Source: Oceanisphaera pacifica
Lineage (GTDB): Bacteria; Pseudomonadota; Gammaproteobacteria; Enterobacterales; Aeromonadaceae
Assembly (NCBI RefSeq): GCF_017498065.1
Contig: NZ_JAGDFX010000004.1
Coordinates: 62,001 to 126,000 of the forward strand
Reading direction: 5' to 3'
Length of the DNA: 64,000 bases
Shown here: in pieces, positions 4,246 to 62,224 of the stretch
Layout of the letters: every line of letters starts with the position of its first letter
Numbering within the stretch: position 1 is the first letter of the stretch
Position numbers and translations under genes: made by a program
The notes under the pieces: generated by a model
Database searches by the model: none
What the model was told of the DNA's origin: nothing
The model's input: only the letters and a program-made list of their open reading frames with translations

Positions 4246-4266
4246 CCTTACGTTTTACGCTTTACG
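4246..4266. repeat. Short 7-bp-period array (three units)
   Basis: Three consecutive heptamers, CCTTACG, TTTTACG and CTTTACG, lie in the tgt-queA gap. This is the TACG flavour of the degenerate heptamer family seen in many other gaps of this window. Confidence 0.6.
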
Positions 4267-4288
4267 TGAAACATAAATACCCGCCCTT

Positions 4289-4327
4289 GTAGTCCAACGC
4301 TTTAGCTGTTGGTCCTGTTTAGCAGGA
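4289..4327 (+). repeat. GTAG-headed REP-like palindrome
   Basis: Begins GTAGTCC and contains an imperfect palindrome, CCAACGCTTTAGCTGTTGG, followed by a second short hairpin CCTGTTTAGCAGG. The same two-hairpin layout recurs at 7236-7274 and 33912-33950. A GTAG head followed by a foldback is the hallmark of REP sequences mobilised by RAYT transposases; no RAYT gene is present here. Confidence 0.6.
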
Positions 4328-4356
4328 GGGAGTTGGGAATTGGAGTTAACCAATCC

Positions 4357-5427
4357 CTAGTCCCTATTCCCCAATGTCTGTTGTCGAGTAAGAAACATGG
4401 CATCGCCGTAGCTGAAAAAGCGGTATCGCTGCTCAATGGCTTGGCGATAGGCTTCTTTAATATTCTCAAATCCGCAAAATGCGCTGACCAGCATGATCAA
4501 GGTGGATTCTGGCAGATGAAAGTTGGTGATCATGGCATCAACTAGCTGAAAGCGATATCCAGGATAAATAAAGATATCGGTATCGCCGTAAAAAGGCGCT
4601 AATGCGGTGTTATTTTCTTGCGCCACTTTTGCCGCACTTTCTAATGAACGTACCGAGGTAGTCCCCACGGCAATCACGCGGCCGCCACGGGCTTTAGTGG
4701 CCAGCACTTTTTCAACCACCTCATCGGACACTTCTATGTATTCAGCGTGCATTTGATGCTCAAGCACATTATCAACCCGCACCGGCTGAAAAGTGCCCGC
4801 CCCTACGTGCAAAGTCACAAACGCCAGTTCGGCGCCTTTGACCACCAGTGCATCTAATAAAGCTTGATCAAAATGCAGCCCTGCCGTGGGTGCGGCTACC
4901 GCACCGGGCTTTTCATTATAAACGGTTTGATAACGCTCTTTATCAGCCTCGGTATCGGGTCGGTCAATATAAGGCGGCAGGGGCATATGGCCCACCGCTT
5001 CTAAAATTTCTAATACAGTGCGCGCGTCATCATGAAATTCAATTTCAAACAAAGCGTCGTGGCGCGCCACCATAGTCGCCTTAACATCTGGCTCTAGAAT
5101 TAATTCGCTACCGGGCTTAGGGGCTTTAGAGGCACGCACATGGGCCAATACGCGCTTATCATCTAATACGCGCTCAACCAACACCTCTAACTTGCCGCCA
5201 CTGGCCTTACGGCCAAATAATCGAGCTGGAATAACCCGCGTATTGTTAAATACCAGCAAGTCTCCTGGGTTAACACGCTCCAGTACTTGATGAAAATAAC
5301 CATGATTAATCTCACCACTGTTACCCTCTAGCTGTAACAAACGACTTGCGCCGCGCTCCGGCATGGGGTGGCGGGCAATAAGCTCATCGGGGAGCTCAAA
5401 AGAAAATTCGCTAACCAGCATAGGCAA
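4357..5427 (-). CDS. queA: S-adenosylmethionine:tRNA ribosyltransferase-isomerase
   Basis: Transfers and isomerises the ribosyl group of S-adenosylmethionine onto preQ1-tRNA to give epoxyqueuosine. The 356 residues have the typical start ([23 protein letters not shown]), the [13 protein letters not shown] motif and the conserved PTAGLHFD and [12 protein letters not shown] blocks. The final residues after [11 protein letters not shown] are unusual: TLGNRD and the stop are encoded by a TTGGGGAATAGGGA sequence that recurs at about 38871-38884, so the original 3' end seems to have been replaced by repeat DNA. It is the first gene of the tgt-yajC-secDF group; the 212 bases upstream should hold the promoter. 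Confidence 0.96.
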
Positions 5428-5639
5428 CCTCTTGTAATAACGTGCGATAGTCTAGTGAGGGCGCCTCACTGGATCAAGGCAATTCGCCGTTATCGCGCCA
5501 TAATGCATATTATTGTGATATAGCGTAAGGTCAATGTAATAGGCACTTGATGATATCTTCCTTTATGGTGATCATCAGACAAGACGTTATCGTTCGACTA
5601 TCTTGATATTAAAACGACATCAAAGAGAAGGAATACCTT

Positions 5640-6152
5640 ATGCCAGCTATCGTCTCTGAAATTATGACCCGCGATGTGATTGGTCTGCCCCCTACCGCCA
5701 CCTTGGGTGAAGCGCGCACATTAATGCAGCGCCATCATATTCGACACCTTCCTGTACTCAAAGAAGACACCTTAGTGGGGCTGGTAAGCCAGCGAGATAT
5801 GTTAGCCGCCCAAGAGTCTTGCCTTGAAAAAGACAGTAATGGCGCTTTTTTAACTCAGCATCAACTATCAGAAGTGATGATCGAAGACGTCACCAGTGTC
5901 AGCCCCAAGGCTGGGGTACGTGAGGCGGCGCAGTATTTACAACAACATAAATACGGCTGTTTGCCGGTTATTGATAAAGGCAAATTAGTGGGCATTGTCA
6001 CCGACAGTGACTTTGTGACAGTGGCGATTCATCTGCTTGAGGTATTGGATGCACAATTGGCCGAGCAGCCCGATAATGAGATGGATCCCGATGATTTAGA
6101 CTTATCGGTGCATCAGGTTGATGAGGATGATGACGCGCTACCGGTAAGATAG
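5640..6152 (+). CDS. CBS-domain pair protein
   Basis: A free-standing Bateman module of 170 residues. The first CBS motif spans about residues 1-58 (IMTRDVIGLPPTATLGEARTLM start, then HIRHLPVLKEDTLVGLVSQRDML). The second spans about 78-135 (VMIEDVTSVSPKAGVREAAQYL, then GCLPVIDKGKLVGIVTDSDFV). An acidic tail follows. Such proteins usually bind adenine nucleotides and sense energy state, but the partner is unknown. GAGAAGGAAT precedes the ATG. The next gene, acpH, begins 8 bases after the stop, so they may be co-transcribed. A second small CBS protein lies at 50944-51375. Confidence 0.85.
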   Translation: MPAIVSEIMTRDVIGLPPTATLGEARTLMQRHHIRHLPVLKEDTLVGLVSQRDMLAAQESCLEKDSNGAFLTQHQLSEVMIEDVTSVSPKAGVREAAQYLQQHKYGCLPVIDKGKLVGIVTDSDFVTVAIHLLEVLDAQLAEQPDNEMDPDDLDLSVHQVDEDDDALPVR

Positions 6153-6160
6153 GCCAGTCA

Positions 6161-6766
6161 ATGAACTACCTAGCCCATCTACATCTGGCACAATTGAGTC
6201 ACACCAGCCTGCCGGGTGCCTTGTTAGGCGAGTATGTAAAAGGGGACATCAACAAAAGTGCTAAAGACGCACTCCCCGCCGATTTACAGCGAGGCGTTTG
6301 GCTACATAGGCGCATCGACTCTTTTACCGATGCTCACCCGCAGCATTTGGGGGCGGTGCGAGCCTTGCCCAGCCCCTATCGGCGTTTTGGTGGCATTATT
6401 ATGGATATGATATTTGACCATTTTTTGGCTAAACATTGGTGTTGCTTTAGCTCTCAGCCACTGAGTAACTTTATTGATGAGGCCCACGCCCAGCTTGTGC
6501 CAGATAACCATTGGCCAGCTGCCATGGTGACCTTGGTGGCACGTATGCAGCAATATCAGTTACTGGCCAGTTATCAGTCTTTAGAGGGCATTAGCTTGGC
6601 GCTCACCCGCATTGGCCAGCGCTTTCACCGCCCTACCCCGCTTGCCCATTGTCTGCCTTTATTACAAGCGCATTATTCAGATATGGAACAAGCTTTTTTG
6701 CGCTTTTACCCCGAGTTAATGGATTATGTATTAAGACAAAGCGTGAAAGATAGCTGGAAGCGGTAA
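6161..6766 (+). CDS. acpH: Acyl carrier protein phosphodiesterase
   Basis: Removes the 4'-phosphopantetheine arm from holo-acyl carrier protein. The 201 residues (E. coli 193) start MNYLAHLHLA and contain LLGEYVKGD, the RIDSFTDAHP block and GIIMDMIFDHFLA, the family metal-site residues of this HD-like fold. The last codons, reading SWKR and stop, lie inside a 7-bp-period array (6752-6781), so the extreme C-terminus is repeat-derived. The enzyme acts opposite to the phosphopantetheinyl transferase encoded at 16259-16984, although the two genes are not linked in an operon. Confidence 0.9.
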   Translation: MNYLAHLHLAQLSHTSLPGALLGEYVKGDINKSAKDALPADLQRGVWLHRRIDSFTDAHPQHLGAVRALPSPYRRFGGIIMDMIFDHFLAKHWCCFSSQPLSNFIDEAHAQLVPDNHWPAAMVTLVARMQQYQLLASYQSLEGISLALTRIGQRFHRPTPLAHCLPLLQAHYSDMEQAFLRFYPELMDYVLRQSVKDSWKR

Positions 6767-6781
6767 GCTAGAAGCCGGAAG
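6752..6781. repeat. 7-bp-period array across the acpH stop
   Basis: Units GCTGGAA, GCGGTAA, GCTAGAA and GCCGGAA follow one another without gaps. The TAA of the second unit is the stop codon of acpH. Confidence 0.65.
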
Positions 6782-6807
6782 TAAAGTATTTGCACCGATT
6801 GAGTGTC

Positions 6808-6857: not shown

Positions 6858-6867
6858 CAAAAATCTA

Positions 6868-7230
6868 ATACCAATCGTACTAAAGAAGTGGTCAGCTTTA
6901 ATAGCTGCAAAAGCCGAACAAAGGGGTGACTCCACCGACACGCTGCAAGCACATCCATGTGGCGCTCAACATATGACGTCCCTGTCATGTGATGGTCGGT
7001 GGAGTCACTCCCTTTATCCGGCCAACAACCACTGAGTCGCCTGTTAGCAGTCTCACAGACAACTCTGATCTTTATAAGAGGCGGCTGAGATCGCCTACCA
7101 CGACCGTGAAATGCCATGGACGGCATTTCCCGAGCCCCCATGGATGGGTTTATGGCGTGTCGTGGTAGGTGACTTAGCTTCCTCTCTTATGCAGGTTTTC
7201 AATAGAACAGATCTTTAGTGTATTTGGTAT
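6868..7230 (+). mobile_element. Gene-less inverted-repeat element, family 1, copy 1
   Basis: About 363 bases bounded by similar inverted ends: the left reads ATACCAATCGTACTAAAGAA, the right end on the other strand ATACCAAATACACTAAAGAT. A second, inverted and more diverged copy is at 49206-49542. The interior has no credible gene but contains strong foldbacks. CATATGAC/GTCATGTG surrounds GTCCCT at about 6969-6990, and GAAATGCC/GGCATTTC lies at about 7107-7129, each next to a CATCCATG motif. This fits a MITE or similar non-autonomous element. No transposase in the window matches; the host element is unknown. Confidence 0.65.
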
Positions 7231-7235
7231 AACCT

Positions 7236-7274
7236 TTCTGCTTCGCAGAACCCACGGCTAAAGCGTGGGACTAC
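7236..7274 (-). repeat. GTAG-headed REP-like palindrome
   Basis: On the minus strand it begins GTAGTCCCACGCTTTAGCCG, pairs into a CCCACG...CGTGGG hairpin and continues into a TTCTGCTTCGCAGAA hairpin. It starts 5 bases after family-1 element copy 1 and is nearly identical to 33912-33950. Confidence 0.65.
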
Positions 7275-7296
7275 AGAAAACACCAGTAGCTTTGTC

Positions 7297-7354: not shown

Positions 7355-7394
7355 CGCTTCCGGCTTCCGGCTTCCGGCTTCAAGCTTCAAGCTA
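7355..7394. repeat. 7-bp-period array (CTTCCGG/CTTCAAG)
   Basis: Units are three CTTCCGG followed by two CTTCAAG-like heptamers, about five and a half in all. It lies between the repeat cluster and the aceA terminator. Confidence 0.65.
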
Positions 7395-10543: not shown

Positions 10544-12112
10544 ATGTTAGATGCAAACCTCAAACAACAATTGAACGCTTATTTACAAAACATTGTCTCG
10601 CCTATCGAGATCAGCGTGTCCTTGAGCGAGACACCAGAACAAGTAGCAAAATCAACCGAATTACGAGAGTTGGCCACAGAAATTAGCCAGCTTTCACACC
10701 AAATAAGCCTAAAGGAAGCGCAAGCACACCGCTCTCCTAGCATGAGCATTGCGCCAGCAGGCCAAACGCCAAGAGTAAGCTTTGCCGGTATTCCTATGGG
10801 TCATGAATTTACTTCTTTAGTATTGGCACTGCTACAGGCAGGCGGTCACCCTTCTAAAGTGAGCAGTGAATTACAGCAGCAAATTCGCGACCTTAAAGGC
10901 GAGTTTCATTTTGAAACTTATATTTCACTGTCGTGCCAAAACTGCCCCGATGTGGTGCAGGCTCTTAACTTAATGGCGACCCTTAACCCTAATATTACTC
11001 ATGTGATGATAGATGGGGCGCTGTTTCAAGACGAAGTAACAGAACGTCAAATTATGGCGGTGCCTGCCGTTTATCTAAACGGTGAGCATTTTGGCCAAGG
11101 GCGCATGAGCTTAGAAGAGATCATTCCTAAGCTTGATAGCGAAGCGGCCGAGCGCCAAGCGGCAAACTTAAATGATGTCGACCCTTACGATGTATTAGTT
11201 GTAGGTGGTGGCCCAGCAGGCGCGGCAGCCGCCATTTATGCGGCCCGAAAAGGCATACGCACCGGCTTGTTAGCTGAGCGCTTTGGCGGCCAAGTGATGG
11301 ATACCCTAGGTATAGAAAACTTTATTTCTGTGCCTTATACCGAGGGCCCTAAACTCGCAGCAAGCCTTGAGCAGCATATAAAAGAGTATGATGTGGATAT
11401 TATTAGCGCCCAACGCGCCACTGGTATTCAATCGGCCTCTGCAGATACTAATGGGTTAGTGAATATCCCCTTAGCCAGTGGCGCAACCTTAAAAAGCCGC
11501 AGTGTGATTTTAGCCACAGGGGCGCGCTGGCGAGAGCTGAATGTGCCAGGTGAAGTGGAATATCGCAATAAAGGCGTGGCCTATTGCCCACACTGTGATG
11601 GCCCTTTGTTTAAGGGGAAGCGAGTGGCAGTAGTCGGCGGTGGTAACTCAGGTATTGAGGCCGCAATTGATTTAGCCGGCCTAGTCGAGCATGTCACTGT
11701 ATTGGAGTTTGCCGATACTTTACGCGCCGATGAGGTGTTACAGCGCAAAGCCGAGTCTTTGCCGAATGTTGAGATTATTCGCAGTGCGCAAACCACAGAA
11801 GTGGTGGGCGATGGTCAAAAAGTCAGCGGTATGAATTATATTGACCGCGTGAGTGGCGAGCCTAAGCACCTTGCTGTTGCCGGTATTTTTGTACAAATTG
11901 GCTTAGTACCTAATACTGAGTTTTTACAAGGCTCAAACATTGAGCTATCGCGCTTTGGTGAAGTGATTATCGATGCTAAAGGCGCTACCTCACAACCCGG
12001 TGTCTTTGCCGCTGGCGATGCGACCACTGTACCGCATAAGCAGATTATTATTGCCATGGGAGCCGGTGCCACCGCCGCCCTCAGCGCCTTTGACCATTTA
12101 ATTAGATCGTAA
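10544..12112 (+). CDS. ahpF: Alkyl hydroperoxide reductase flavoprotein subunit
   Basis: NADH-dependent disulfide reductase that regenerates AhpC. The 522 residues (E. coli 521) carry an N-terminal double thioredoxin-fold domain with Cys-x-x-Cys in LSCQNCPD near residue 130. A thioredoxin-reductase-like part follows with the FAD loop [12 protein letters not shown] near 220, the redox pair in YCPHCDGP near 347, and the NADH loop [12 protein letters not shown]. The end, GVFAAGDAT, is also typical. It shares the OxyR-controlled transcript with ahpC and is followed by the longest heptamer array and a terminator. Confidence 0.97.
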
Positions 12113-12121
12113 AACAAGGCG

Positions 12122-12209
12122 GGAAGCTGGAAGCTGGAAGCTGGAAGCTGGAAGCTGGAAGCTGGAAGCTGGAAGCTGGAAGCTGGAAGCTGGAAGCTGG
12201 AAGCTGGAA
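12122..12209. repeat. Near-perfect tandem array, 7-bp unit GGAAGCT x 12.6
   Basis: Eighty-eight bases made of essentially identical heptamers, directly after ahpF. It is the most homogeneous member of the degenerate heptamer family in this window and looks recently expanded. Being a multiple of 7 it gives a long open frame on the minus strand with a repeated peptide (ASSFQLP), which is not a gene. Confidence 0.95.
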
Positions 12210-12213: not shown

Positions 12214-12243
12214 AAACACCGAGCCATAAGGGCTCGGTGTTTT
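12214..12243. terminator. Bidirectional terminator between ahpF and yejK
   Basis: AAACACCGAGCC and GGCTCGGTGTTT form a perfect 12-base stem around a 5-base loop, with A-rich and T-rich flanks, so it can serve both convergent genes. Confidence 0.9.
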
Positions 12244-12254: not shown

Positions 12255-12288
12255 CTGATAGCTGACAGCTGACCGCTTAAAGCTGCAG
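12255..12288. repeat. 7-bp-period array abutting the yejK stop
   Basis: Units CTGATAG, CTGACAG, CTGACCG, CTTAAAG and CTGCAG. It touches the stop codon of yejK at 12289. With the array at 12122-12209 it brackets the terminator. Confidence 0.75.
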
Positions 12289-13284
12289 TTACCCCTTCAG
12301 CAGTTGTGATTTTAAGTTAGGCGGTAGGCCTTTTATCACTAAGGTGTCGGTGTGCTCGTCATATTGGATGCGCTCACCTAAGAGTTTTTGATCAAAGCTT
12401 ATGGTTAATCCCCCTCCTGAGCCCACATACTTGGTTAGCCCTGTTAGTGATGAGCGATCAACGGGAAATTTTTCTTCTAACTGATATTCATCACTTACAA
12501 ACTGATAAAAGTCTAAATCGTTATCTGCTCCCAACTCGGCCGATAACTCCCGCATTTCAAGCTCTTCACCCTCTTTTAGCTGCTCGCGACAATATTTGTT
12601 GACCAGCGCCTTACTTTCTTGCTTTTCTTCTTTGCTTAATTGGCGGGCATCGCAAAACTCATCCACCGCTTTTAGTAAGCCTTGGTTTTGCGCCTTAGGA
12701 TCCATGCCTTCTACGCACGAGAGAAAGTTTAAGAAAAAGTCCGACACCTTGCGCCCAGCACGGCCTTTAATAAAAGAGAAATAACGGCGTGAGTCGGGGC
12801 GGGTTTGTAGCTCGGTAAGATCGAGCCGTGCCGCCAACTGCATTTTGCCCAAATCCAAGTAACTGGCATGGCTCACATCTAGCTTATCGGTCACGGTGAC
12901 GCTGTCTTTATTGTCCAGCAGGGCAATTAACAAGTAGTGCGCGCCTAACCATTGATAGCGCACAAACAGCAATACTCCCGCCTCGTTCATCTCTAATCGG
13001 TTGAGCTCATTAAGCAAGCGCTGTGAGGCTTGGTGACTAAAGGCGGTAAAGCTGAGGCTCTCATCTTCTACGCGACGCACTAAGTCACGAAAACTGTCCT
13101 CTTCATCATTAAAGTAACCAAATACCTTACCGGCCTTGGTGTTATAAATATGATGTAACTCGCCCATTAAGTCGTTTACGGCGGGGCCTGTGTCTAACTC
13201 CTGATCACGGGTAGTTAGTTGGGTTTGTCCCTGCTCATCAAGAAACAGAGAATGTACTATGATGTGTTCGATATCCAAGCTCAT
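12289..13284 (-). CDS. yejK: Nucleoid-associated protein YejK/NdpA
   Basis: Nucleoid-associated DNA-binding protein of the 37 kDa NdpA family. The 331 residues agree with the family (335 in E. coli). The N-terminus MSLDIEHIIVHSLFLDEQGQ and the central FSFIKGRAGRKVSDFFLNFL block are typical, and the end, LPPNLKSQLL, is conserved. It is divergent from yejL with 77 bases between, as in enterobacteria. Confidence 0.93.
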   Translation of the reverse strand: MSLDIEHIIVHSLFLDEQGQTQLTTRDQELDTGPAVNDLMGELHHIYNTKAGKVFGYFNDEEDSFRDLVRRVEDESLSFTAFSHQASQRLLNELNRLEMNEAGVLLFVRYQWLGAHYLLIALLDNKDSVTVTDKLDVSHASYLDLGKMQLAARLDLTELQTRPDSRRYFSFIKGRAGRKVSDFFLNFLSCVEGMDPKAQNQGLLKAVDEFCDARQLSKEEKQESKALVNKYCREQLKEGEELEMRELSAELGADNDLDFYQFVSDEYQLEEKFPVDRSSLTGLTKYVGSGGGLTISFDQKLLGERIQYDEHTDTLVIKGLPPNLKSQLLKG

Positions 13285-13664: not shown

Positions 13665-15521
13665 ATGCTCGAAAACGGTAACCTTTATCGCGATAACGTA
13701 TCCCGCCTGATAGGCTGGGGACACTGGCTGGTGTTTATTAATGTGCTGTTAGCCATGGCCGTGTCTAGCCGTTACCTGCTTATTGCTGGCAGTCCAGATA
13801 CGCTACTGGGCGTATTTTATATGCTGATCAGTTGGGCGGGGCATTTTGCTTTTCTGACTTTTTTCACCTATTTGCTGACTTTGTTTCCGCTTACCTTTTT
13901 ATTTCCTAAGGTACGCGCGGTGCAATTAATGGGGGCAGCCATTGCAACGGGTGCCCTCACTTTGTTGCTGGTTGATACCCAAGTATTTAGCTTATTTAAG
14001 TTTCACCTTAACCCTACCGTTTGGCGCTTATTACTCGAGCAAGCTCAAGCCGAAGAAGCTTCAGGATGGGGCTGGCTATTTGTGTGGGTGCCGCTGCTAT
14101 TTTTATTTGAGCTTTGGCTGGCCTCTTGGCTGTGGCGTTGGAGCCAACGTCGTCGACGCTCGTTGACACTGCCGCTGTCTGTGCCCTTATTAGCCTGTTT
14201 CTTTTTAACCCATAGCATGCATATTTGGGCCGATGCACTGGTGTACGCTCCTATTACCGAGCAAAAAGCCAACTTTCCGCTGTCTTACCCCATGACCGCA
14301 AAAAGCTTTTTAATAAAACAAGGCTGGTTAGACGAAGATCAATATCGACAGCTGTCTAAACAAGCGGAAGATAACGCTGGGCGCACTCTTAATTATCCGC
14401 AGCGCCCCTTAACTGTAAAAGCGCCAGATCTGCCCCCCAATATTTTATTGGTGGTGGCCGATGGCCTGCGCGGCGATCAACTTGATGCGATTACCATGCC
14501 AAATCTCAATCGGTTTGCCCATAGACACTTGCGCTTTAGTGACCATTTAAGTGCGGGCAATCAAACCGAATCGGCATTATTTAGCCTCTTCTATAGCCTG
14601 CCTAGTCGCTATCAACACGAGATGGTGCAAGAAAACATGGCACCTGTGTTTATTGATGAGTTACAGCGCCAAGATTATCGCTTTGGCTTATTTGCCAGCG
14701 GCGGCCTAGATACGGCTTTATATAAAGACGCTATTTTTTCAAGCTTACGCCATCGTAACTTTAATGCCGCCCCTGGCGGTTTCAAAGGCGATCAACAAGC
14801 GGTGGCTGAGTTTATGCAGTGGCAAGCACAGCAACAGAGCGAGCGCCCTTGGTTTTCCTTTGTGTACTTAAATGCCCTCACCTCCCTCGACTTACCCGAG
14901 CAAGTTGAAGGGCCCTTTCAGCCCGCCATTAAGCAATTAAACCCAGCTCAGCCTTATCAAAGTGAGCAGCAAGAGGCGCTGTTTAATCGTTATCGCAATT
15001 CGGTCTTTTATACCGATCGCCTATTAGGGCAATTATTGTCTTTTAACCAAGGTGTGAGTGAGCGCGATACTTTGATTATTGTTACCTCTGGCCATGGCAT
15101 GGAGTTTAACGATAATGACAATAACACTTGGGGGTTTGGTAATGCGTATTCTCCAGCCCAGCTTAAGGTGCCATTGGTGATCAGCTGGCCTGGGCAGTTA
15201 CAACCGGCACACTTTGAGCACCCAAGTAGCCAATTAGATGTGATCCCCAGCGTGATGCGCCAAGCATTAGGGGTCAATAACCCCATGCGCAGCTATGCCA
15301 CTGGCCAGTCTTTATTTAATGCTGATAATAACAGATGGCGACTAGCTTCAGACGCAGATGAATATGCCATTTATCAGCATCAAGACATTACCTTGTTTAA
15401 TCGCCGAGGGGACATGCAACTGTTACGCGCCAGCGACTATCGCCAGCAATCAGATGATAGCCCCGAGCTGTCGTTATTACTGCAAGTAATGAACGACTTA
15501 AACCGCTTTCAAGGGGATTAA
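13665..15521 (+). CDS. yejM: Inner-membrane lipopolysaccharide sensor YejM/PbgA
   Basis: Essential in enterobacteria, where it senses lipopolysaccharide in the inner membrane and restrains LapB-FtsH breakdown of LpxC. The 618 residues (E. coli 586) have about five N-terminal membrane helices within residues 1-190, then a periplasmic alkaline-phosphatase/sulfatase-like domain that begins PPNILLVVADGLRGDQLD near residue 257 and includes IIVTSGHGMEFNDN. The sulfatase fold lacks the usual catalytic nucleophile motif, consistent with a sensor. It sits with yejK and yejL as in E. coli. Confidence 0.93.
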   Translation: MLENGNLYRDNVSRLIGWGHWLVFINVLLAMAVSSRYLLIAGSPDTLLGVFYMLISWAGHFAFLTFFTYLLTLFPLTFLFPKVRAVQLMGAAIATGALTLLLVDTQVFSLFKFHLNPTVWRLLLEQAQAEEASGWGWLFVWVPLLFLFELWLASWLWRWSQRRRRSLTLPLSVPLLACFFLTHSMHIWADALVYAPITEQKANFPLSYPMTAKSFLIKQGWLDEDQYRQLSKQAEDNAGRTLNYPQRPLTVKAPDLPPNILLVVADGLRGDQLDAITMPNLNRFAHRHLRFSDHLSAGNQTESALFSLFYSLPSRYQHEMVQENMAPVFIDELQRQDYRFGLFASGGLDTALYKDAIFSSLRHRNFNAAPGGFKGDQQAVAEFMQWQAQQQSERPWFSFVYLNALTSLDLPEQVEGPFQPAIKQLNPAQPYQSEQQEALFNRYRNSVFYTDRLLGQLLSFNQGVSERDTLIIVTSGHGMEFNDNDNNTWGFGNAYSPAQLKVPLVISWPGQLQPAHFEHPSSQLDVIPSVMRQALGVNNPMRSYATGQSLFNADNNRWRLASDADEYAIYQHQDITLFNRRGDMQLLRASDYRQQSDDSPELSLLLQVMNDLNRFQGD

Positions 15522-15523
15522 TC

Positions 15524-15553
15524 AGCTATCAGCGATAAGCTGTCAGCTATCAG
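15524..15553. repeat. 7-bp-period array, left arm of a long hairpin
   Basis: Units AGCTATC, AGCGATA, AGCTGTC and AGCTATC start just after the yejM stop. Its GCGATAAGCTGTCAGCT stretch pairs with AGCTGACGGCTTATCGC in the array at 15603-15633. Confidence 0.75.
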
Positions 15554-15602
15554 AAACAGCTAGGTTTTAAAGCGAAAAACAATGTGATGAGGTGCTTTCT
15601 TT

Positions 15603-15640
15603 AGCTGTTCGCTTACAGCTGACGGCTTATCGCTTTTTTA
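15603..15640. terminator. 7-bp-period array, right arm, with T run
   Basis: Units GCTGTTC, GCTTACA, GCTGACG and GCTTATC followed by GCTTTTTTA. Together with the left array it forms a 17-base near-perfect stem with a loop of about 65 bases. The T run gives it terminator character for yejM. Confidence 0.6.
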
Positions 15641-17851: not shown

Positions 17852-17855
17852 AAAC

Positions 17856-17963
17856 AGCTGTAAGCCGTCAGCTGTAAGCGTTCAGCTAAAGATAAAAAAG
17901 CCCCGAGCCTTTGTGGACTTGGGGCTTTTTGTTGAACTTACAGCTGACCGCTGATAGCTGTCA
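17856..17963. terminator. Terminator nested inside inverted heptamer arrays
   Basis: Inner stem AAAAAGCCCCGAG/CTTGGGGCTTTTT (17895-17930) is a clear bidirectional rho-independent terminator. It is flanked by two 7-bp-period arrays: left 17856-17888 (AGCTGTA, AGCCGTC, AGCTGTA, AGCGTTC) and right 17939-17963 (GCTGACC, GCTGATA, GCTGTCA). These are inverted relative to each other and can form an outer stem. It fills the gap between convergent cnoX and the transporter gene. Confidence 0.8.
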
Positions 17964-17966
17964 TTA

Positions 17967-22242: not shown

Positions 22243-22250
22243 GTAGCGCC

Positions 22251-22338
22251 AAGCTGGAAGCCGAAAGCTGGAAGCCGAAAGCTGGAAGCCGAAAGCTGGA
22301 AGCTGGAAGTGTCACTTACAGCTTATGGCTTATGGCTA
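22251..22338. repeat. Mixed 7-bp-period array between convergent genes
   Basis: Alternating AGCTGGA and AGCCGAA heptamers (22251-22310) are followed by GCTTATG units (22319-22338). It fills the whole bepA/TlpA-like gap and runs into the TlpA-like gene, supplying its last four codons and stop. Confidence 0.8.
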
Positions 22339-22799: not shown

Positions 22800-22919
22800 A
22801 GCTTCACTCACGTTAGGGATAGGTAAACTTTTCTCTTTTGCCATCGTCCAATGTTAACATCATTGCGTTATCATCCGTCACTGGCATTATATTGTGCGCA
22901 TTGTCACAGGAGTTTATTC

Positions 22920-32114: not shown

Positions 32115-33896
32115 ATGAAAACATTCATTCCTAGCAAAGACGCTGCGCTGGAAGACTCCATTAGCTACTTTCAGCAACAGCTCATCAAGCTTGGCTTTGA
32201 TATCGAGGAGGCCTCTTGGCTGAATCCGGTACCCAATGTCTGGTCGGTACATATTCGCGATAAAAGCTGTGGTTTATGCTTTACCAATGGTAAAGGCGCC
32301 AGTAAAAAAGCCGCGCTTGCTTCAGCCCTAGGTGAATACTTTGAACGTTTAGCCACTAACTACTTTTTTGCCGACTTTTACCTCGGCCAAGAGATTGCTG
32401 ACGGCGATTTTGTGCACTACCCCAACGAAAAATGGTTTGCCCTGCCAAGTGATAACAGCCTGCCTAAGGGGATGCTGGATGACTACACGCGAAGCTTTTA
32501 CAACCCCGAGAATGAGTTAACCGCCGATATGTTGATCGACTTACAGTCGGGCAATGATAATCGCGGTATTTGCGCCCTGCCCTTTGAGCGCCAAGGTGAT
32601 TTAGCCACTGTGTATATTCCGATGAATATCGTCGGAAACTTATATGTTTCTAATGGCATGAGTGCCGGTAATACGCGCACCGAAGCTCGCACCCAGGGGT
32701 TATCGGAAGTATTTGAGCGCAGCATTAAAAGTCGCATTATCAGCGAGCGTATTAGCCTGCCTAAGATCCCCGCTAAGGTAATGGCGCGCTACCCGCATAT
32801 TGAAGCTCCCATTGCTGCATTAGAAGCCGAAGGCTTTCCTATTCATGCCTTTGATGCCTCATTAGGCGGCGAATACCCCGTTATTTGCGTGGTGTTATTT
32901 AACCCAGCAAACAGCACTTGTTTTGCATCTTTTGGCGCGCACCCACGTTTTGAGGTGGCTTTAGAGCGCACTGTAACTGAGCTATTGCAAGGTCGTAGTT
33001 TAAAAGAGTTAGATGTATTTGTGCCGCCTTCTTTTGCCGACGACGAGGTGGCTGATCACCATAACCTTGAAACACACTTTATTGACTCATCGGGCCTTAT
33101 CAGCTGGGACTTATTTCAAGACACTGCCGACTTTGAGTTTGTCGATTGGGATTTTAGCGGCAGTTCAGAGCAAGAATTCTCTCACCTGTTAGCCATTTTT
33201 AATAAGCTAGAACAGCCAGTTTATATCGCCGACTATGAGCATTTAGGTGTTTACGCTTGCCGTATTTTAGCACCGGGTATGTCGGATATTTATCCGGTTG
33301 ATGACTTAACCATGGCCAATAACAATATGGGCGCCCACTTGCGCGCTACCTTGTTAAGCCTGCCAGAGTCGGATGCTGATGCCGAACAGCTTATGGCCTT
33401 ATATGAGCAGTTAGAAGAAGAAGGCTTTGATGATTTTACTCGAGTGCGCGAACTAATTGGCATTGCCTCAAGTAAAGGCAGTGCTTGGCATACGCTGCGC
33501 ATTGGTGAGCTAAAATGTATGCTGGCTTTGGCCGCAGGTGAGCTTGAAGTGGCGCTAGAGTATGCCGACTGGACCTTAAGCTTTAATGCTTCTGTGTTTA
33601 GTGATGAGCGCCATCGTTATTATCGCTGTTTAAAAGCCGCACTTGAGCTATTTTTAAGTGAAGACCGTGATCCTAGCCAGTATAAATCCGCATTTAGTAG
33701 CATGTTTAGTACCCAAACCGTCGAGCAGGTTTGGGCAAATATTGCAGGCCAAACACGTTTTCATGGCCTAACGCGCGCAGATGAAAGCTTGAGCGATTTT
33801 CCGGCTCACCAAGCACTACTGGCCACTTACGAAAAACTGCAACAAGCGAAACGAAAGCAGGGAGCTGGAAGCTGTCAGCCGTCAGCTGTCAGTTAA
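32115..33896 (+). CDS. ycaO: YcaO-domain protein (RimO-linked)
   Basis: Stand-alone YcaO of the E. coli type (586 residues; here 593), which is linked to beta-methylthiolation of ribosomal protein S12 by RimO rather than to peptide natural products. The ATP-binding YcaO fold covers about residues 50-400, with KGASKKAALASALGEYFERL near 58 and TRTEARTQGLSEVFERSIK near 185. A TPR-like C-terminal region follows from 410. The final residues after LQQAKRKQ (GAGSCQPSAVS) and the stop are encoded by a heptamer array (33863-33899) and are unlikely to be functional. No precursor peptide or dehydrogenase gene is nearby, which argues against a RiPP cluster. Confidence 0.9.
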   Translation: MKTFIPSKDAALEDSISYFQQQLIKLGFDIEEASWLNPVPNVWSVHIRDKSCGLCFTNGKGASKKAALASALGEYFERLATNYFFADFYLGQEIADGDFVHYPNEKWFALPSDNSLPKGMLDDYTRSFYNPENELTADMLIDLQSGNDNRGICALPFERQGDLATVYIPMNIVGNLYVSNGMSAGNTRTEARTQGLSEVFERSIKSRIISERISLPKIPAKVMARYPHIEAPIAALEAEGFPIHAFDASLGGEYPVICVVLFNPANSTCFASFGAHPRFEVALERTVTELLQGRSLKELDVFVPPSFADDEVADHHNLETHFIDSSGLISWDLFQDTADFEFVDWDFSGSSEQEFSHLLAIFNKLEQPVYIADYEHLGVYACRILAPGMSDIYPVDDLTMANNNMGAHLRATLLSLPESDADAEQLMALYEQLEEEGFDDFTRVRELIGIASSKGSAWHTLRIGELKCMLALAAGELEVALEYADWTLSFNASVFSDERHRYYRCLKAALELFLSEDRDPSQYKSAFSSMFSTQTVEQVWANIAGQTRFHGLTRADESLSDFPAHQALLATYEKLQQAKRKQGAGSCQPSAVS

Positions 33897-33899: not shown

Positions 33900-33911
33900 A
33901 AAATCTAACCA

Positions 33912-33950
33912 CTCTGCTTCGCAGAACCCACAGCTAAAGCGTGGGACTAC
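33912..33950 (-). repeat. GTAG-headed REP-like palindrome
   Basis: Minus strand GTAGTCCCACGCTTTAGCTG with the CCCAC...GTGGG and CTGCTTCGCAG hairpins; nearly identical to 7236-7274. Confidence 0.65.
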
Positions 33951-33978
33951 AGAAAAACCAGAATTGAGGCTGTTTTTG

Positions 33979-38450: not shown

Positions 38451-39106
38451 CTGGCAGCGCCAAGCCCCCCCTTTGGGGAGCTGTAAGTCGTCAGCTATAA
38501 GCTGTCAGTTAAAGAAACCACAAACCAAAGCTATACGTCTAACGCTGACCGCCTTAAACAAGGCGGTACGCTATACGCCGTAAGAAAAATCTGAACACCG
38601 GTTTGGTTTTTCGTAAGGCGTTCAGCGTAAAGCGTATAAAAAGCCGAAAGCTGGAAGCGGTAAGCTAAACAAAAACACTGCGGTACTTTTATTTTTGGTT
38701 TTACTTCAAGCTTCTAGCTTCAAGCTTATTACTGTCTGTTCAATGGATTGCCGCGTCGTTGCACTCCTCGCAATGACTGCCCCTTCGGGGAGCTGTCAGC
38801 CTTAAGCCGTAAGCTGTCAGTTAAAGGAACACAGCGGCTAGCTTAGATATTGATGCGTGATTAGGGATTGGGGAATAGGGAGCAGAACAAGAAAAACCGT
38901 GTCGTCCGCCTTACCCTTCACCGGTTTATCTTAGCCAGTTCACTTCACCCTCTTCGTAGTCATTGCAAGCGCAGCGTGGCAATCCATTCCAAACCAAAGC
39001 GCTACGTTTAACGCTGACCGCTTTACGTTAAAGAAAACACTGGTTTTTTTCGTACCACGCTCGGCGTAAAGCGTATGGCTGCTTAAAGGCGCTAAGCTTG
39101 GAAGCG
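38451..39106. repeat. Repeat-only gap between crbR and crbS
   Basis: The 656 bases contain no credible gene. Heptamer arrays lie at 38478-38514, 38530-38585, 38612-38666, 38705-38727, 38790-38826, 39000-39032 and 39062-39106. The pairs 38530-38585/38612-38666 and 39000-39032/39062-39106 are roughly inverted, and the T-rich stretches GGTTTTTCG and GGTTTTTTTCG lie between or beside them. Two CATTGCGAG-type palindromes lie at about 38739-38776 and 38960-38990. A TTGGGGAATAGGGA repeat shared with the queA 3' end is at 38871-38884, and a TCGTCC...GTTTATCT repeat at 38900-38955. Confidence 0.75.
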
Positions 39107-47086: not shown

Positions 47087-47522
47087 CCTGTCACTTCATC
47101 ACAAGTCTGTAAAATGTCATAGTGTAGGAAGAGCCAGCAGGCTTGCCTTCGCCAACTCGCTTAAACCGCATCCATGCGGCGCTCGGCAAATGCCGTCCCT
47201 GGCATTTGACGGTTGGCTACGGCAATGCCTCCTATCTCTTCTTCATGCTTTAGTGGCGACTGTTTGTAGTAACAGTCAGTTCAGATGCTAATGGGAAGGC
47301 AGAAGGTGGCTGCTCCGTCGACCCTCCGCGCCAAGGATGGCGCGGCGGAGCCCCAGTGGGGCGAGTCTCTTTCGCCTAGATGAGCTTTTTAGCCAGACCG
47401 AATATCCAGTGAATATTCGCAGTTGGCTAAAAAGTGAGTGGCCTATTTAGCGGCGAGTCGAGCGGAGCGCTCTGCCTGACTTTTACCCAAACATCAACAA
47501 AAAGATGTAACTAAGTGACAGG
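47087..47522 (+). mobile_element. Gene-less inverted-repeat element, family 2, copy B
   Basis: About 436 bases with intact inverted ends: left CCTGTCACTTCATCACAAGT, right end on the opposite strand CCTGTCACTTAGTTACATCT. Internal hairpins are CCGCATCCATGCGG, CAAATGCC/GGCATTTG around GTCCCT (about 47187-47208), CCGCGCCAAGGATGGCGCGG, and TTTTTAGCCA/TGGCTAAAAA. It is inverted and about 80 percent alike by eye relative to copy A at 28276-28724. Heptamer sequence flanks it (AAGCGGTAAG on the left, CGGTCAGCTTTAAGCTGTCAG-like on the right), as if it had landed in an array. No coding capacity. Confidence 0.72.
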
Positions 47523-47690
47523 CGGTCAGCTTTAAGCTGTCAGAAAAATCAAAAAATAGTACCGAACAAACCAACCTAAGTCATGCCACATATATGCGGT
47601 GACGACAGAGCTCTCAGCTTTCTAGACTTGGCGCTAATGCTCCCTGTCGCTGAAGGCTGAAAGCTGACGGCTTAGCGCTAGTGAACACTT
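47523..47690. repeat. 7-bp-period arrays upstream of rhlE
   Basis: CGGTCAG, CTTTAAG and CTGTCAG units at 47523-47543, and a second group at about 47609-47685 whose halves (CTCTCAGCTTTC... and GAAGGCTGAAAGCTGACGG) can fold on each other. The remaining bases to 47790 should contain the rhlE promoter; TTATCATATTATAAG near 47718 is AT-rich, but I cannot assign boxes with confidence. Confidence 0.6.
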
Positions 47691-49109: not shown

Positions 49110-49155
49110 CATAGCTGATAGCCGATAGCTATCAGCGCTAAGCCGTCAGCTATCA
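49110..49155. repeat. 7-bp-period array after rhlE
   Basis: Units AGCTGAT, AGCCGAT, AGCTATC, AGCGCTA, AGCCGTC and AGCTATC. The first half is inverted relative to the second, so it can fold. It sits between the stop codon and the terminator. Confidence 0.75.
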
Positions 49156-49161
49156 GCAAAC

Positions 49162-49194
49162 AAAAAAGCCGACTACTCTGTAGTCGGCTTTTTT
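49162..49194. terminator. Rho-independent terminator of rhlE
   Basis: AAAAAAGCCGACTAC and GTAGTCGGCTTTTTT form a long perfect stem with a tiny loop. Confidence 0.93.
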
Positions 49195-49205
49195 ATCATC
49201 CTCTT

Positions 49206-49542
49206 ATACCAAACACACTAAATATTTGTTCTATTGAAAACCAGCATAAAATAGGAAGCTGGGTCACCTCCCACGACACGCCATAAATCCACCCATGACA
49301 TTCACGGTTGTGGGATGCGATCTCAGCCGCCTCTTCTTGAGCTCAGCGTTGTCATTGAGACTGCTAACAGGCAACTCAGTGGCTGATGGCCGGATAAAGG
49401 GAGTAACTCCACCGACCATCACATGACAGGGACGTCATGTGTTGAGCGTCACAGGGAGGTGCTTGCAGCGTGTCGGTGGAGTCACCCCTTTGTTCGGCTT
49501 TTGCAGCAAGTAAAACGACTGTTTCTTTAATGTAATTAGTAT
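49206..49542 (-). mobile_element. Gene-less inverted-repeat element, family 1, copy 2
   Basis: About 337 bases, inverted relative to copy 1 at 6868-7230. The left end is ATACCAAACACACTAAATAT; the right end on the opposite strand is ATACTAATTACATTAAAGAA. It keeps the CACATGAC/GTCATGTG hairpin (perfect here, about 49423-49444) but has lost the second hairpin module between two CCATG words that copy 1 still carries. No coding capacity. Confidence 0.62.
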
Positions 49543-49586
49543 TAAAGTATTTAAGATAAGCCTAGGTTGGGACTTGCACAGATCTG

Positions 49587-49623: not shown

Positions 49624-49672
49624 TAAGAGCAGCGGTACGACTTACAGTTTAGCGCTACGCTTTACATTTAAC
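49624..49672. repeat. 7-bp-period array over the benE 3' end
   Basis: Units GCGGTAC, GACTTAC, AGTTTAG, CGCTACG and CTTTACA-like heptamers. It encodes the last residues (about NVKRSAKL) and stop of the minus-strand transporter gene. Confidence 0.65.
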
Positions 49673-50825: not shown

Positions 50826-50858
50826 CAGCGGTACGCCTTATGCTGTACGCCATAAGTT
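50826..50858. repeat. 7-bp-period array upstream of benE
   Basis: Units CGGTACG, CCTTATG, CTGTACG and CCATAAG. It is one of the few arrays on the 5' side of a gene. Confidence 0.55.
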
Positions 50859-50943
50859 ACATAATAACCCCGTTTTACAGCCCATTCATAAGGCGCAAGA
50901 TACCATTGCTCCGGTAAAACTGGGCTTCTTGCCCCTCACCAAG

Positions 50944-52880: not shown

Positions 52881-53576
52881 GTGAGCTTTAAACGCTACGC
52901 CGTTTTTGCAATGGCCTCTTTGCTATTGCACGGCCTATTGGCACATGCCATGGACAATCAGGCGCTAACCATTGCCGCCCCGCCAGCCGAGCCTGGCCCC
53001 ATCAGCGTGCAAATGATCCCCACAGTGACTCAGCCCAGTGCTGAGCCCGAGCCTGTGGTGGAGCCCAAACCTGAGCCAAAACCTGAGCCCAAGCCAGAAC
53101 CTAAGCCTGTGCCCAAACCTAAGCCGGTACCTAAACCTGAGCCCAAGCCAAAGCCAACTCCCAAACCGGTAGCAAAACCTAAGCCTAAACCGGCTGCAAA
53201 ACCCACACCCGCGCCAACGCCCAAAGCGCAGCCTAAGCCTGAGCCAATTAAAAAGATGGCTGAAAAGCCAGCTGCTAAAGCAAAAAATAGTGCCCCCAAG
53301 CGCATTGAAAGACCTAGCTTTCGTAGTCGTCCCGCTCCTATTTCTTATCCGTCTCGAGCTCGTCGCCGGGGTCAAGAAGGGACTGTCGTTATTGAAGTGT
53401 GGTTAGATAAGCGCGGCGAGCAAACCAAGCGCGTTATTGTGCAGTCTTCTGGTGTGAAAGCGCTAGATTCAACCGCCTTAAAAGGCGTGGCTAAATACCG
53501 TTTTTCTCCTTATATAGAAAATGGGCAAGGTATTGCTCACCGTGTTCATATTCCCATTCGTTTTAAATTGGATTAA
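52881..53576 (+). CDS. tonB: Energy transducer TonB
   Basis: Spans the periplasm to energise an outer-membrane haem receptor. The 231 residues start at a GTG nine bases after GAGG. One membrane helix lies at about 5-24, then a long Pro-Lys/Pro-Glu tract (about 58-125, repeated KPEPKP units) and the C-terminal TonB domain with ISYPSRARRRGQEGTVVIEVWLDKRG near residue 155 and YRFSPYIENG at the end. It is first of six genes with overlaps or gaps of 3 bases or fewer. No TonB-dependent receptor gene lies in the window. Confidence 0.94.
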   Translation: MSFKRYAVFAMASLLLHGLLAHAMDNQALTIAAPPAEPGPISVQMIPTVTQPSAEPEPVVEPKPEPKPEPKPEPKPVPKPKPVPKPEPKPKPTPKPVAKPKPKPAAKPTPAPTPKAQPKPEPIKKMAEKPAAKAKNSAPKRIERPSFRSRPAPISYPSRARRRGQEGTVVIEVWLDKRGEQTKRVIVQSSGVKALDSTALKGVAKYRFSPYIENGQGIAHRVHIPIRFKLD

Positions 53577-61113: not shown

Positions 61114-61153
61114 ATTAATATAGCGCCCAGCTAAACACCAAAGCTAAAGATGA

Positions 61154-61454
61154 TTGGCAATGGAACCCGCAGAAAACACGGAAAAATAGGGATCAGATCT
61201 GAAAATGCTCACTATTGATAAGGTCTACCCAAGTGCCGCTTCGCGCCACCAGCCAGCTAAAGCGGCTTCTACCAGTAACAGTAAAGCGGACTGGCTGAGA
61301 TAAACCGATGAGGGGTGAGGGGGACGATACTCAAAACAACAGCTGCTCCCTAATCTCGCTTTAATCAGTTTGCTTTATCTCGTCCTCCTCACCCATCACC
61401 CTTTACAAGTCTTATATCTATTTTTCCGTGGATTCAGTGGATTCCGTTGCAAAA
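61154..61454. mobile_element. Gene-less inverted-repeat element, family 3, copy 2 (composite)
   Basis: About 301 bases. The right end on the opposite strand reads TTTTGCAACGGAATCCACTG then AATCCACGGAAAAATAG; the left end is a diverged GGCAATGGAACCCGCAGAAA then ACACGGAAAAATAG. The interior differs from copy 1 at 23749-23934 and includes a second-class REP (61233-61272) and a TCGTCC...GTTTATCT repeat (61279-61330), so it looks like nested insertions. No gene. Confidence 0.55.
61233..61272 (-). repeat. GTAG-headed REP-like palindrome, second class
   Basis: Minus strand GTAGAAGCCGCTTTAGCTGG, then GCGAAGCGGCAC; related to 33979-34022. It lies inside the family-3 element. Confidence 0.6.
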
Positions 61455-61548
61455 GTATTTTGGTGTTATTTTTTAGGTTTAAGGTTACTCCTTTATCGCC
61501 TTACTGAACTTGTTTTAGCATCTTTTTTGCTTTGCCATATGTTTTCTG

Positions 61549-61583
61549 ACGGCTGACAGCTTAGAGCTGACCGCTGATAGTTT
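61549..61583. repeat. 7-bp-period array after the DUF4202 gene
   Basis: Units CTGACGG, CTGACAG, CTTAGAG, CTGACCG and CTGATAG end three bases before the stop codon of the minus-strand gene. Confidence 0.75.
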
Positions 61584-61585
61584 TA

Positions 61586-62173
61586 CTACTGCAAAGCCTT
61601 ACCGACCAGCTCGCTGATTTCTTTATTTAGCTGCAACTGCAAAGCTGCGGCTTGGCCTTCAGCCGACATTTTGCCCCAGGTTTTTTGAATAATGCTGATA
61701 AGCTTTGCTTCGCTATGACGCTGGGCAAAATCTGCTAAATAAAATTCCATAAAGACCAAGCAAATAATATCTTCTAAGGTTTGCACCTCTGAGTCACGCT
61801 TAAGCTGCTTTTTTAATAGCAAGTCTTTAATTTGCGCTTGCTCAGTGTCGCTATAGCCCACCTTGGCCATTAGCTCTGCGGTAAAGTCACCATGAAAAGC
61901 ACCTAGGTCGGTGCGCCAGCGTTTATAGCCGGCTCTGTCCATTGGGTAGTCTGCACGGGGAATATGCCAGCGCTTAATATGCTGTGCACGACAGGCGATT
62001 TGCAGCAGTTCGCTGGCATTAGGCGCAAACTCAGCCTGTTTCGCACTCATACGCACACTGTATAAATACTCTTTGGGCCAGACTTGTCCATCTACTTGCT
62101 CTTGGTTGGGATCTTGCTTATTTTCAGCATCAATTAAAGCCCATACTTGCTGTAGTCGAGAGTTATTGGTCAT
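61586..62173 (-). CDS. DUF4202 family protein
   Basis: A 195-residue cytoplasmic protein without signal or membrane segments. QVDGQVWPKEYLYSVRMSA near residue 25, LLQIACRAQHIKRWHIPRADYPMDR near 57 and EDIICLVFMEFYLADF near 130 are typical of DUF4202. The histidines and aspartates in these blocks suggest an HD-like metal site, but activity is unknown. It is divergent from hmp with about 200 bases between, which may place it under the same redox/nitric-oxide signals. Confidence 0.82.
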   Translation of the reverse strand: MTNNSRLQQVWALIDAENKQDPNQEQVDGQVWPKEYLYSVRMSAKQAEFAPNASELLQIACRAQHIKRWHIPRADYPMDRAGYKRWRTDLGAFHGDFTAELMAKVGYSDTEQAQIKDLLLKKQLKRDSEVQTLEDIICLVFMEFYLADFAQRHSEAKLISIIQKTWGKMSAEGQAAALQLQLNKEISELVGKALQ

Positions 62174-62193
62174 TTCATCGTCCTGTATCTAAG

Positions 62194-62224
62194 CTCAGCG
62201 CCTTACGCTAAGCGCTATACGCCA
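62194..62224. repeat. 7-bp-period array upstream of the DUF4202 gene
   Basis: Units GCGCCTTAC-like: CCTTACG, CTAAGCG and CTATACG with TACG/AGCG ends, lying about 20 bases before the start codon on the minus strand. Confidence 0.5.

Follow-up and report, generated by a model that had tools for sequence, protein, structure and literature searches.

The 64,000-nucleotide stretch analysed here (the window) is positions 62,001 to 126,000 of contig NZ_JAGDFX010000004.1 of Oceanisphaera pacifica, one stretch of a draft genome that totals 3.1 Mb over 37 contigs. The closest named relatives of the protein of its gene 20800-22242 come from Oceanisphaera, Zobellella and Oceanimonas species and their relatives, at no more than 82% identity. 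A first-pass annotation had described degenerate 7-bp arrays between its genes, with the phase of seven kept, and this description was borne out. We call the 7-nt units heptads and analysed where the arrays lie, how they are built and how they differ between species. Genes were called with a home-made caller.

In several gaps of the window the arrays stand as inverted arms. Five nt past the stop codon of gene 10544-12112 lies a left arm of 13 AGCnnGA-type units (12118..12208, + strand), an expanded copy in which 12 units are identical AGCTGGA. The right arm of this gap (12257..12284, - strand) has 4 AGCnnTM units followed by AGTTAAAG and lies 4 nt from the stop of gene 12289-13284 (-). Between both arms an intrinsic terminator-like hairpin, CCGAGCC..GGCTCGG and then TGTTTT, can be read from the sequence (12219..12243). 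Behind gene 13665-15521, 4 AGCnnTM units found by a scan for unit families (family scan) begin 2 nt past the stop (15524..15551, +); the right arm, 4 AGCnnTM-type units with an AGCTAAA edge, lies 3 nt from the opposing stop (15600..15634, -). The left arm 4 nt past the stop of gene 17015-17851 has 4 AGCnnTM units and an AGCTAAA edge (17856..17890, +), and its right arm has 3 AGCnnTM units, 7 nt from the opposing stop (17939..17959, -; family scan). A terminator-like hairpin with an A tract before it and a T run after it was read between these arms (17900..17930). Behind gene 20800-22242, 9 AGCnnGA-type units with a 14-bp higher-order repeat begin 2 nt past the stop (22245..22307, +) and are followed by a right arm whose 3 AGCnnTM units extend into the end of gene 22323-22844 (-) (22317..22337, -; family scan). 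A left arm of 3 AGCnnTM units with an AGAAAA edge (47521..47541, +) has an inverted partner of 4-5 AGCnnTM units (47645..47679, -; family scan).

The 7-nt period is a property of the intergenic DNA as a whole. Identity at lag 7 in the intergenic DNA of the window was 0.304, compared with 0.255 after shuffling (z = 12.5, 30 dinucleotide shuffles); the runner-up lags were 14 (z 5.6), 5 (5.0) and 3 (4.8). Twelve lag-7 segments scored at least 12, whereas 5 shuffles gave 0.0 on average. The lag-7 excess expected by the first-pass annotation is also present in a 464-kb intergenic sample of the genome, with z 10.0 at lag 7, 10.3 at lag 14 and -1.9 at lag 8. High values at lags 3 (10.6), 6 (8.9) and 12 (7.9) in this sample are probably due to residual coding DNA. 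Strong segments numbered 38 at lag 7 against 2.3 in shuffled sequence, and 2 against 1.7 at lag 8.

Arrays were counted in 864 kb, which is 28% of the genome, with a cyclic seven-position hidden Markov model (HMM). In the fitted unit A-G-C is fixed, positions 4-6 are nearly free and position 7 is mostly A or C. In non-coding DNA and 60-nt gene edges, together 232 kb, the model found 227 arrays, compared with 13, 13 and 9 in three shuffles. Coding interiors were almost free of arrays (40 per 627 kb). Three AGCNNNM units followed by AGC occur at 503 places genome-wide, overlapping matches counted, and the reversed-pattern control at none. The family scan of the window gave 31 matches, 6 of them mostly coding, against 3.0 in shuffles. 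The data in which we counted unit families and HMM arrays had also served to define the families and the model; the lag-7 tests are independent of both. A genome-wide set of degenerate heptads with kept phase is thereby confirmed as real.

All but one of the 18 sites listed in the first-pass annotation lie within 40 nt of a lag-7 segment or a unit-family run. The remaining site, 62194, was missed by the family scan but was detected by a first HMM and, as period 14, by Tandem Repeats Finder (TRF); it is a weak heptad run between divergent genes (62191..62223, -). The site at 49624 is weak, with 3 units, and partly coding. A purely intergenic location did not hold for two sites. At 6752..6779 (+), 4 AGCnnGA-type units run across the stop codon of gene 6161-6766 and are followed by AGTAAAG. 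At 33863..33890 (+), 4 units (AGCTGGA and three AGCnnTM) lie in the last codons of gene 32115-33896, whose TAA is within the AGTTAAAG edge.

We sorted the units into the families AGCnnTM, AGCnnGA, AGCRCCn, GTRARGn, GGGAnTn and TACGCnn, each with a fixed core and free positions. AGCnnTM arrays frequently end in AG(Y)TAAA, and start at the stop codon or behind a CCCTTYGGG mini-hairpin. AGC-type units followed by a TAAA-type edge form 99 modules, compared with 3 in shuffled sequence. Four units were counted in 62 of them, three in 18, two in 13 and five or more in 6. After copies with identical last 21 nt were removed, 41 of the 65 AGC-type modules of at least three units had four, and 6 had more. 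With alternative A/T-rich words as the edge, the scan of AGC units yielded 5, 37 and 33 modules, compared with 101 for the edges we chose; the A-rich edge of the AGC types is preferred, not exclusive.

The same size recurs in other families and species. Degenerate AGCRCCn runs in genome G051 have 3, 4, 5 and 6 units in 6, 12, 1 and 1 cases (four in 12 of 20), and GTRARGn runs in its sister G059 have 3, 4 and 5 units in 8, 19 and 1 cases (four in 19 of 28). Measured by lag-7 segments with no unit definition, degenerate arrays peak at 28-31 nt in both G051 (28 of 83) and G059 (30 of 81). Near-pure arrays are distinct from these and reach 29 units. The degenerate arrays are short gene-end modules, commonly of four 7-nt units, and most do not form the family of open arrays originally described. 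The earlier statement that many units are odd-length palindromes was not borne out as a trend: 25 of 106 AGCT units were palindromic and 34.1 were expected with positions shuffled.

Placement "between genes" was an incomplete description, because the arrays sit just 3' of stop codons, above all in convergent gaps. Among gaps of at least 30 nt, 45 of the 96 convergent ones hold an array, as do 52 of the 314 tandem and 6 of the 109 divergent ones (Fisher p 3e-12, convergent against divergent). Lag-7 z in the own genome was 20.3 in the 70 nt after stops and 2.1 before starts (489 tails, 517 heads; dinucleotide shuffles). Lag-7 segments beginning within 40 nt of the stop numbered 53 in 499 own 3' tails, against 2.3 in shuffled tails. 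Tail and head values in other genomes were 7.5 and 0.4 (G051), 3.0 and 0.4 (G050), 4.3 and 1.8 (G196), and 4.3 and 0.5 (G362). There was no lag-7 excess in G343 (-0.8 and 1.5) or in G010, a member of another genus of the same family, by inference Aeromonas (-1.4 and -1.7). Other lags reach comparable values in small 200-kb samples (lag 12 in G343 tails, z 6.9; lag 9 in G196 heads, z 8.6; lag 11 in G362 tails, z 4.4), and the lag-7 values of G050, G196 and G362 are therefore weak support.

The arrays are also oriented. Within 15 nt of stops 59 are sense and 13 antisense, and 37 and 11 are the counts for unique-flank arrays within 40 nt of stops. Near starts, again up to 40 nt away, the classes together give 11 antisense and 6 sense, and the AGCnnTM type 9 and 1. 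The class GTA3 (AGCGTAC/AGCGTAA units) is seemingly unoriented, with 3 sense and 5 antisense within 15 nt of stops; read from the opposite strand, its units resemble the TACGCnn family, and the A-rich edge is similar too. We considered sense orientation as a sign of action at the RNA level or of R-loops and dropped this, because a palindromic element is enough to give both the sense arms that follow stops and the antisense arms that precede starts, the latter seen for AGCnnTM arrays. A role as stop-codon traps was likewise rejected: sense arrays have 5.64 stop triplets per 100 nt compared with 6.24 in shuffled and 8.59 in antisense sequence. Replication direction, assigned from GC skew in six of seven sampled stretches (C32:1-60000 was left out), gave no bias. 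A unique-flank sense array follows 18 of the 385 co-directional genes and 16 of the 273 head-on ones, and 10 of 103 and 14 of 103, respectively, among genes with a convergent neighbour.

Neighbouring runs no more than 150 nt apart in the own genome are ordered + then - in 18 cases, - then + in 2, and directly in 7 and 7. Both arms belong to the same family in 15 of the 18 + - pairs, against 6.5 when permuted. For a wider test we counted an inverted same-family module within 200 nt of a stop-adjacent module as its partner, with AGCnnTM and AGCnnGA taken as one family. Partners were found in 27 of 40 convergent tails of the own genome, 5 of 14 of G051 and 4 of 18 of G059. In tandem tails the counts were 9 of 20, 6 of 12 and 6 of 19. 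Overall, 57 of 123 stop-adjacent modules have an inverted same-family partner, where shuffles give 0-0.7 per set, and only 10 of 123 have a direct one. Since partners occur in tandem gaps too, the pairing is more than two gene ends facing each other.

RNA folding was computed for two window gaps. Gap 17852-17966 folds at -63.7 kcal/mol (z -10.9 against shuffles), and gap 15522-15637 has z -5.3. A terminator, here a GC-rich hairpin and T run as called by our own finder, is present in 24 of 56 array tails and always (24 of 24) after the array; terminators are not commoner there than in array-less tails. No Rfam match was found in the window at the gathering threshold.

Neither the families nor the arrays stay constant behind a given gene. 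We read 60 orthologous loci for 3 window genes with array-holding convergent 3' gaps, which had been chosen for those arrays. Two of the three sets include the locus of the window itself, a contig end truncates one locus (L170), which was mis-anchored, and the orientation of the next gene is confirmed in the window only. An array follows the stop in 32 of the 60 loci, and both arms are present in 29. The two arms are of the same family in 26 of these 29, against 8.7 when permuted, while the family varies between species. Behind the orthologues of gene 10544-12112, for example, the arm units are AGCTGGA in the window and GGGAATA/GGGACTG, GTGAGGG, AGCGCCG or TACGC elsewhere; several species have a plain terminator-like hairpin with zero heptads there. 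The idea of a single repeat family was therefore incomplete, as several unit families exist, differ between species behind one gene, and form many same-family inverted pairs.

Sister species G051 and G059 share 113 reciprocal orthologs with a median protein identity of 97.3%. Their 82 array-less tails are conserved (median identity 0.93), and their array tails are diverged: median identities are 0.07 for the 12 tails with an array in G051 only, 0.30 for the 5 in G059 only and 0.52 for the 14 in both. Four of these 14 have switched family. Arm-family replacement is mostly joint for both arms, sometimes between these sister species 97% identical in protein. Gain and loss of units between sister species, a comparison proposed in the first-pass annotation, was seen in the form of whole-heptad in-register indels, and the overall excess of multiples of seven is small. 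In 23.5 kb of aligned non-coding DNA, 9 of 36 indels of at least 5 nt are multiples of 7, where about 5 are expected; multiples of 4, 5 and 6 number 12, 8 and 8. Near 7 nt, five indels are exactly 7, none is 6 and two are 8. By reading, seven of the nine multiple-of-7 indels fall in heptad arrays, and several indels add a unit similar, not identical, to its neighbour.

Beyond the sister pair, the search tool groups 23 genomes into the genus; AGC heptads occur in all of them, GGGAnTn in 19, AGCRCCn in 9 and GTRARGn in 19. The reversed-pattern control was zero in all 23 genomes for AGCRCCn; for GGGAnTn and GTRARGn it was nonzero, and the reversed words partly resemble real units. A stricter AGCYNNM pattern occurs in 25 of 369 genomes of the class, the own genome included, with degenerate inverted pairs at the listed places in some. 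In G362, a gamma-proteobacterium of another family, inverted pairs occupy 5 of 9 neighbouring gaps of one operon (about 92300-103480 of C1:1-200000), whose translations read as a leucine-degradation-like operon. Their three- to four-unit arms are 89-121 nt apart, and one right arm is expanded. Two of the remaining gaps have a single or partial arm, and none was seen in the other two. At the threshold used, AGC-type arrays occur only at that operon within the 200 kb read.

Our tentative preference, to which we give a little less than an even chance, is that the heptad element is an imperfect 3'-end stem-loop with kept architecture and replaceable sequence, which would act where transcripts end or between cistrons. 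Such a long, imperfectly paired stem-loop might serve in 3'-end formation, stabilisation or insulation, much like repetitive extragenic palindromes (REP) and bacterial interspersed mosaic elements (BIME). Only the family core would have to pair, the free positions would leave small internal loops, and a long perfect palindrome would be avoided. The short centre between the arms may be an intrinsic terminator, and pure many-unit arrays would be slippage expansions of single arms. Because the first arm often begins a few nt from the stop codon, the near arms are sense after stops and, for AGCnnTM, antisense before starts.

Several results weigh against this stem-loop. No partner was detected for 66 of the 123 stop-adjacent modules, and the species behind the 29 orthologous gaps are related, so that these gaps are not independent. 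In G051 (2 of 3) and G059 (3 of 4, p 0.17) the arm-family match is not significant, with few pairs available. Complementarity of the arms at free positions is no better than family alone provides: 0.582 against 0.654 permuted in one comparison, and 0.411 against 0.411 and 0.375 against 0.437 in another. In the orthologous gaps, arm duplex energies are alike for own and foreign partners. Coevolution of the two arms at free positions was dropped, as three comparisons gave no complementarity beyond family; pairing rests on the family core, since the free positions match no better than chance within a family. Terminators are no commoner behind arrays, being present in 53% of 38 convergent tails with and 47% of 140 without them, and in 22% of 18 tandem tails with and 32% of 256 without. 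The four-unit size is also missing from some own-genome sets: three- and four-unit runs number 18 and 11 for AGCnnGA (four in 11 of 29 runs), 7 and 2 for GTRARGn, and 6 and 1 for CGCnnTA. The own-genome segment length peaks lower as well, with 47 segments of 24-27 nt and 37 of 28-31 nt.

Alternatively, the modules could be non-autonomous mobile elements that settle at gene ends, similar to miniature inverted-repeat transposable elements, with the heptad arms as terminal inverted repeats and the heptads as subsites for an oligomeric transposase or recombinase. We regard this as unlikely but live, because dispersed copies of two families, e1 and e2, exist. These two, and only these, have conserved centres and terminal inverted repeats. 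Flanks repeated elsewhere in the sample accompany 143 of 221 arrays by a filter that is over-inclusive and counts partner arms. A palindromic layout would explain the orientation bias without a transcription role, same-family arms would be expected, and an array is present in one sister species only in 17 of 31 tails. However, none of the 36 alignable non-coding indels described above is, by reading, a clean whole-element insertion, and, in contrast to recent copies, arms within a family show free variation at fixed positions. The window has a copy of e2 at 38602..38766, with heptad arms at 38642-38669 (+) and 38706-38726 (-). In a gene-poor region (L131-L133 joined, G000:C32:1-60000; called coding 0.70), two dispersed elements whose arms consist of heptads occur in many copies, for example at 19041-19200 and 11481-11650.

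Neutral replication slippage by 7 nt, with products that are tolerated nowhere but at the 3' ends of genes and that decay as point mutations accumulate, has a smaller chance of explaining the whole set. A polymerase-footprint idea for such slippage is cited in a passage of PMC4692102. The in-register indels between sister species, the pure arrays of up to 29 units and the near absence of arrays from coding interiors all fit it. The excess of multiples of seven is small, however, and adjacent degenerate units are no more alike than units of separate arrays, which argues against recent slippage. At positions 4, 5 and 7 their likeness is 0.29, 0.29 and 0.40, compared with 0.36, 0.33 and 0.43 between arrays (115 adjacent pairs, unique-flank AGCnnTM type), and the same holds when all arrays are taken. 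The common size of four, the preferred edge and the same-family inverted partners would all be unexpected. Slippage accounts for the pure expansions, not for the degenerate modules.

The heptads might instead serve as DNA binding sites of a protein that occupies successive units, such as a nucleoid protein, gyrase, or a ribbon-helix-helix protein; gyrase at BIMEs and the omega repressor, which is of the ribbon-helix-helix kind, offer comparisons. A tandem fixed core with free positions does resemble a repeated recognition motif, and placement in nearly half of the convergent gaps would suit such a role. We consider it improbable, as a single sequence-specific protein does not easily fit several unrelated cores that occur side by side in a genome and take each other's place behind a given gene. 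That G-quadruplexes, as proposed for Xanthomonas and Nostoc heptamers, are the common principle is scarcely credible and is refuted here: GGGAnTn arrays are widespread in the genus (19 of 23 genomes), and Xanthomonas transcripts start or stop more often at quadruplex-able than at control copies according to a passage of PMC4692102, but the AGCnnTM, AGCnnGA, AGCRCCn and TACGCnn families, without GGG in the fixed core, share the same place, size and inverted pairing. Quadruplexes may be relevant for the minor GGGAnTn family.

Heptamer repeats are already known in bacteria, and for Xanthomonas the explanation on offer is the G-quadruplex. Cyanobacterial short tandemly repeated repetitive (STRR) sequences are intergenic heptanucleotide tandem repeats defined by particular unit sequences. 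The first-pass annotation had named them as the nearest analogue; heptanucleotide repeats hold as the class, and STRR, likened by general description to our arrays as tandem heptanucleotides in intergenic DNA, are not the nearest member of it. The REP and BIME of enterobacteria and Pseudomonas consist of palindromic units in inverted arrangement that lie between cistrons and at the 3' ends of genes, with REP families tied to REP-associated tyrosine transposases (RAYT). They share inverted units and this location with the present element, and by general description differ from it in having no heptad arms.

Closer are the (GGGANTN)n repeats, such as GGGAATC, of Xanthomonas. In the passages of Rehm et al. 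(2015, PMC4692102) that bear on them, they are degenerate heptads with fixed and free positions and a clear preference for four units. They favour the 50 bp around stops on the sense strand and positions upstream of starts on the antisense strand, form 70 and 75 convergent pairs in two genomes, and vary in length and sequence among related genomes. Those passages link them to G-quadruplexes, leave their function open and treat Nostoc GGGGAYT repeats alongside. The fixed/free 7-nt unit, the four-unit preference, the stop-sense and start-antisense placement and the inverted pairs are therefore shared, and this architecture is already in print. The difference is that the main Oceanisphaera families have no GGG core, only the minor GGGAnTn family having a G-tract. 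As far as those passages go, a further difference is that several families occur here in one genome and interchange between species, mostly both arms together. TAACTGA repeats of Beggiatoaceae, cyanobacteria and Bacteroidetes (MacGregor 2015, PMC4679880) differ further: the relevant passages describe one sequence, mostly just upstream of start codons, with related heptamers rarely or never repeated. Among the matches listed from open-licence full-text literature, the AGC, AGCRCC and TACGC families and a multi-family four-heptad element are unnamed.

The window has further heptad modules. Those of the AGC types are 5 AGCnnGA units at 7359..7393 (-; family scan), 4 AGCnnTM-type units with a AGTTAAAG edge 28 nt past a stop (38479..38506, +), and 4 AGCnnTM units with CCCCTTCGGGG in front and a AGTTAAAG edge (38791..38818, +). 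Right after the stop of gene 47791-49107, the HMM detects about 6 AGCnnTM-type units (49113..49158, +), which the family scan splits into two runs, and a terminator-like hairpin read from the sequence follows directly (49167..49194). Five AGCnnTM-type units lie 3 nt from the stop of gene 61586-62173 (-) (61548..61582, -; family scan). The family scan also found GGGAnTn runs of 4 units (38857..38884, +) and of 3 units overlapping the end of gene 4357-5427 (-) (4351..4371, -), and TACGCnn runs of 4 units at 4242..4269 (+) and 50832..50859 (+).

Other repeats were seen besides. A dispersed repeat of about 370 bp is present in two inverted copies, 82% identical, at window positions 6866-7232 and 49204-49544, with partial copies elsewhere. 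A short dispersed repeat, CTTCGCAGAACCCACGGCTAAAGCGTGGGACTACAG, at 7230-7286 and 33906-33961 is 93% identical. The 12/18/30-bp tandem repeat of AGCCCAAACCT type at 53061-53156 is unrelated to the heptads and probably encodes a proline/lysine-rich stretch in ORF 52881-53576. Elsewhere (L041-L050 joined, G000:C33:1-200000), about 15 GGGATTA copies right after a stop codon form a near-pure GGGAnTn expansion at 44672-44791. The G051/G059 tails carry an extra heptad family, AATGTTG/AGTGTTG, whose near-pure arrays are long and in G051 reach 29 units. Several gene ends there also have a sequence resembling TTTGCCACGGAATACACGGA nearby. In G408, 79 and 30 places match the reversed control pattern, and another heptad family may be there.

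The recurrence of the 7 x 4 layout between species with the letters swapped suggests that spacing and pairing outweigh sequence. It is possible, if rather doubtful, that across several lineages there is a gene-end element defined by geometry, namely inverted arms of about four 7-nt units, in which the letters are swapped as a set and the seven, the four, the place and the pairing persist. If true, this would imply a cellular machine or physical constraint that measures heptads. It would also bring the repeats of Xanthomonas, Nostoc and the Oceanisphaera type under one principle other than the G-quadruplex, which is removed as the common principle by the same stop-adjacent, often four-unit, inverted-pair layout in AGC-, TACGC- and GTRARG-type units. 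It is now a testable question what recognises or produces about four heptads whatever their letters, and G051 and G059, alignable yet family-switched, are a natural experiment for it.

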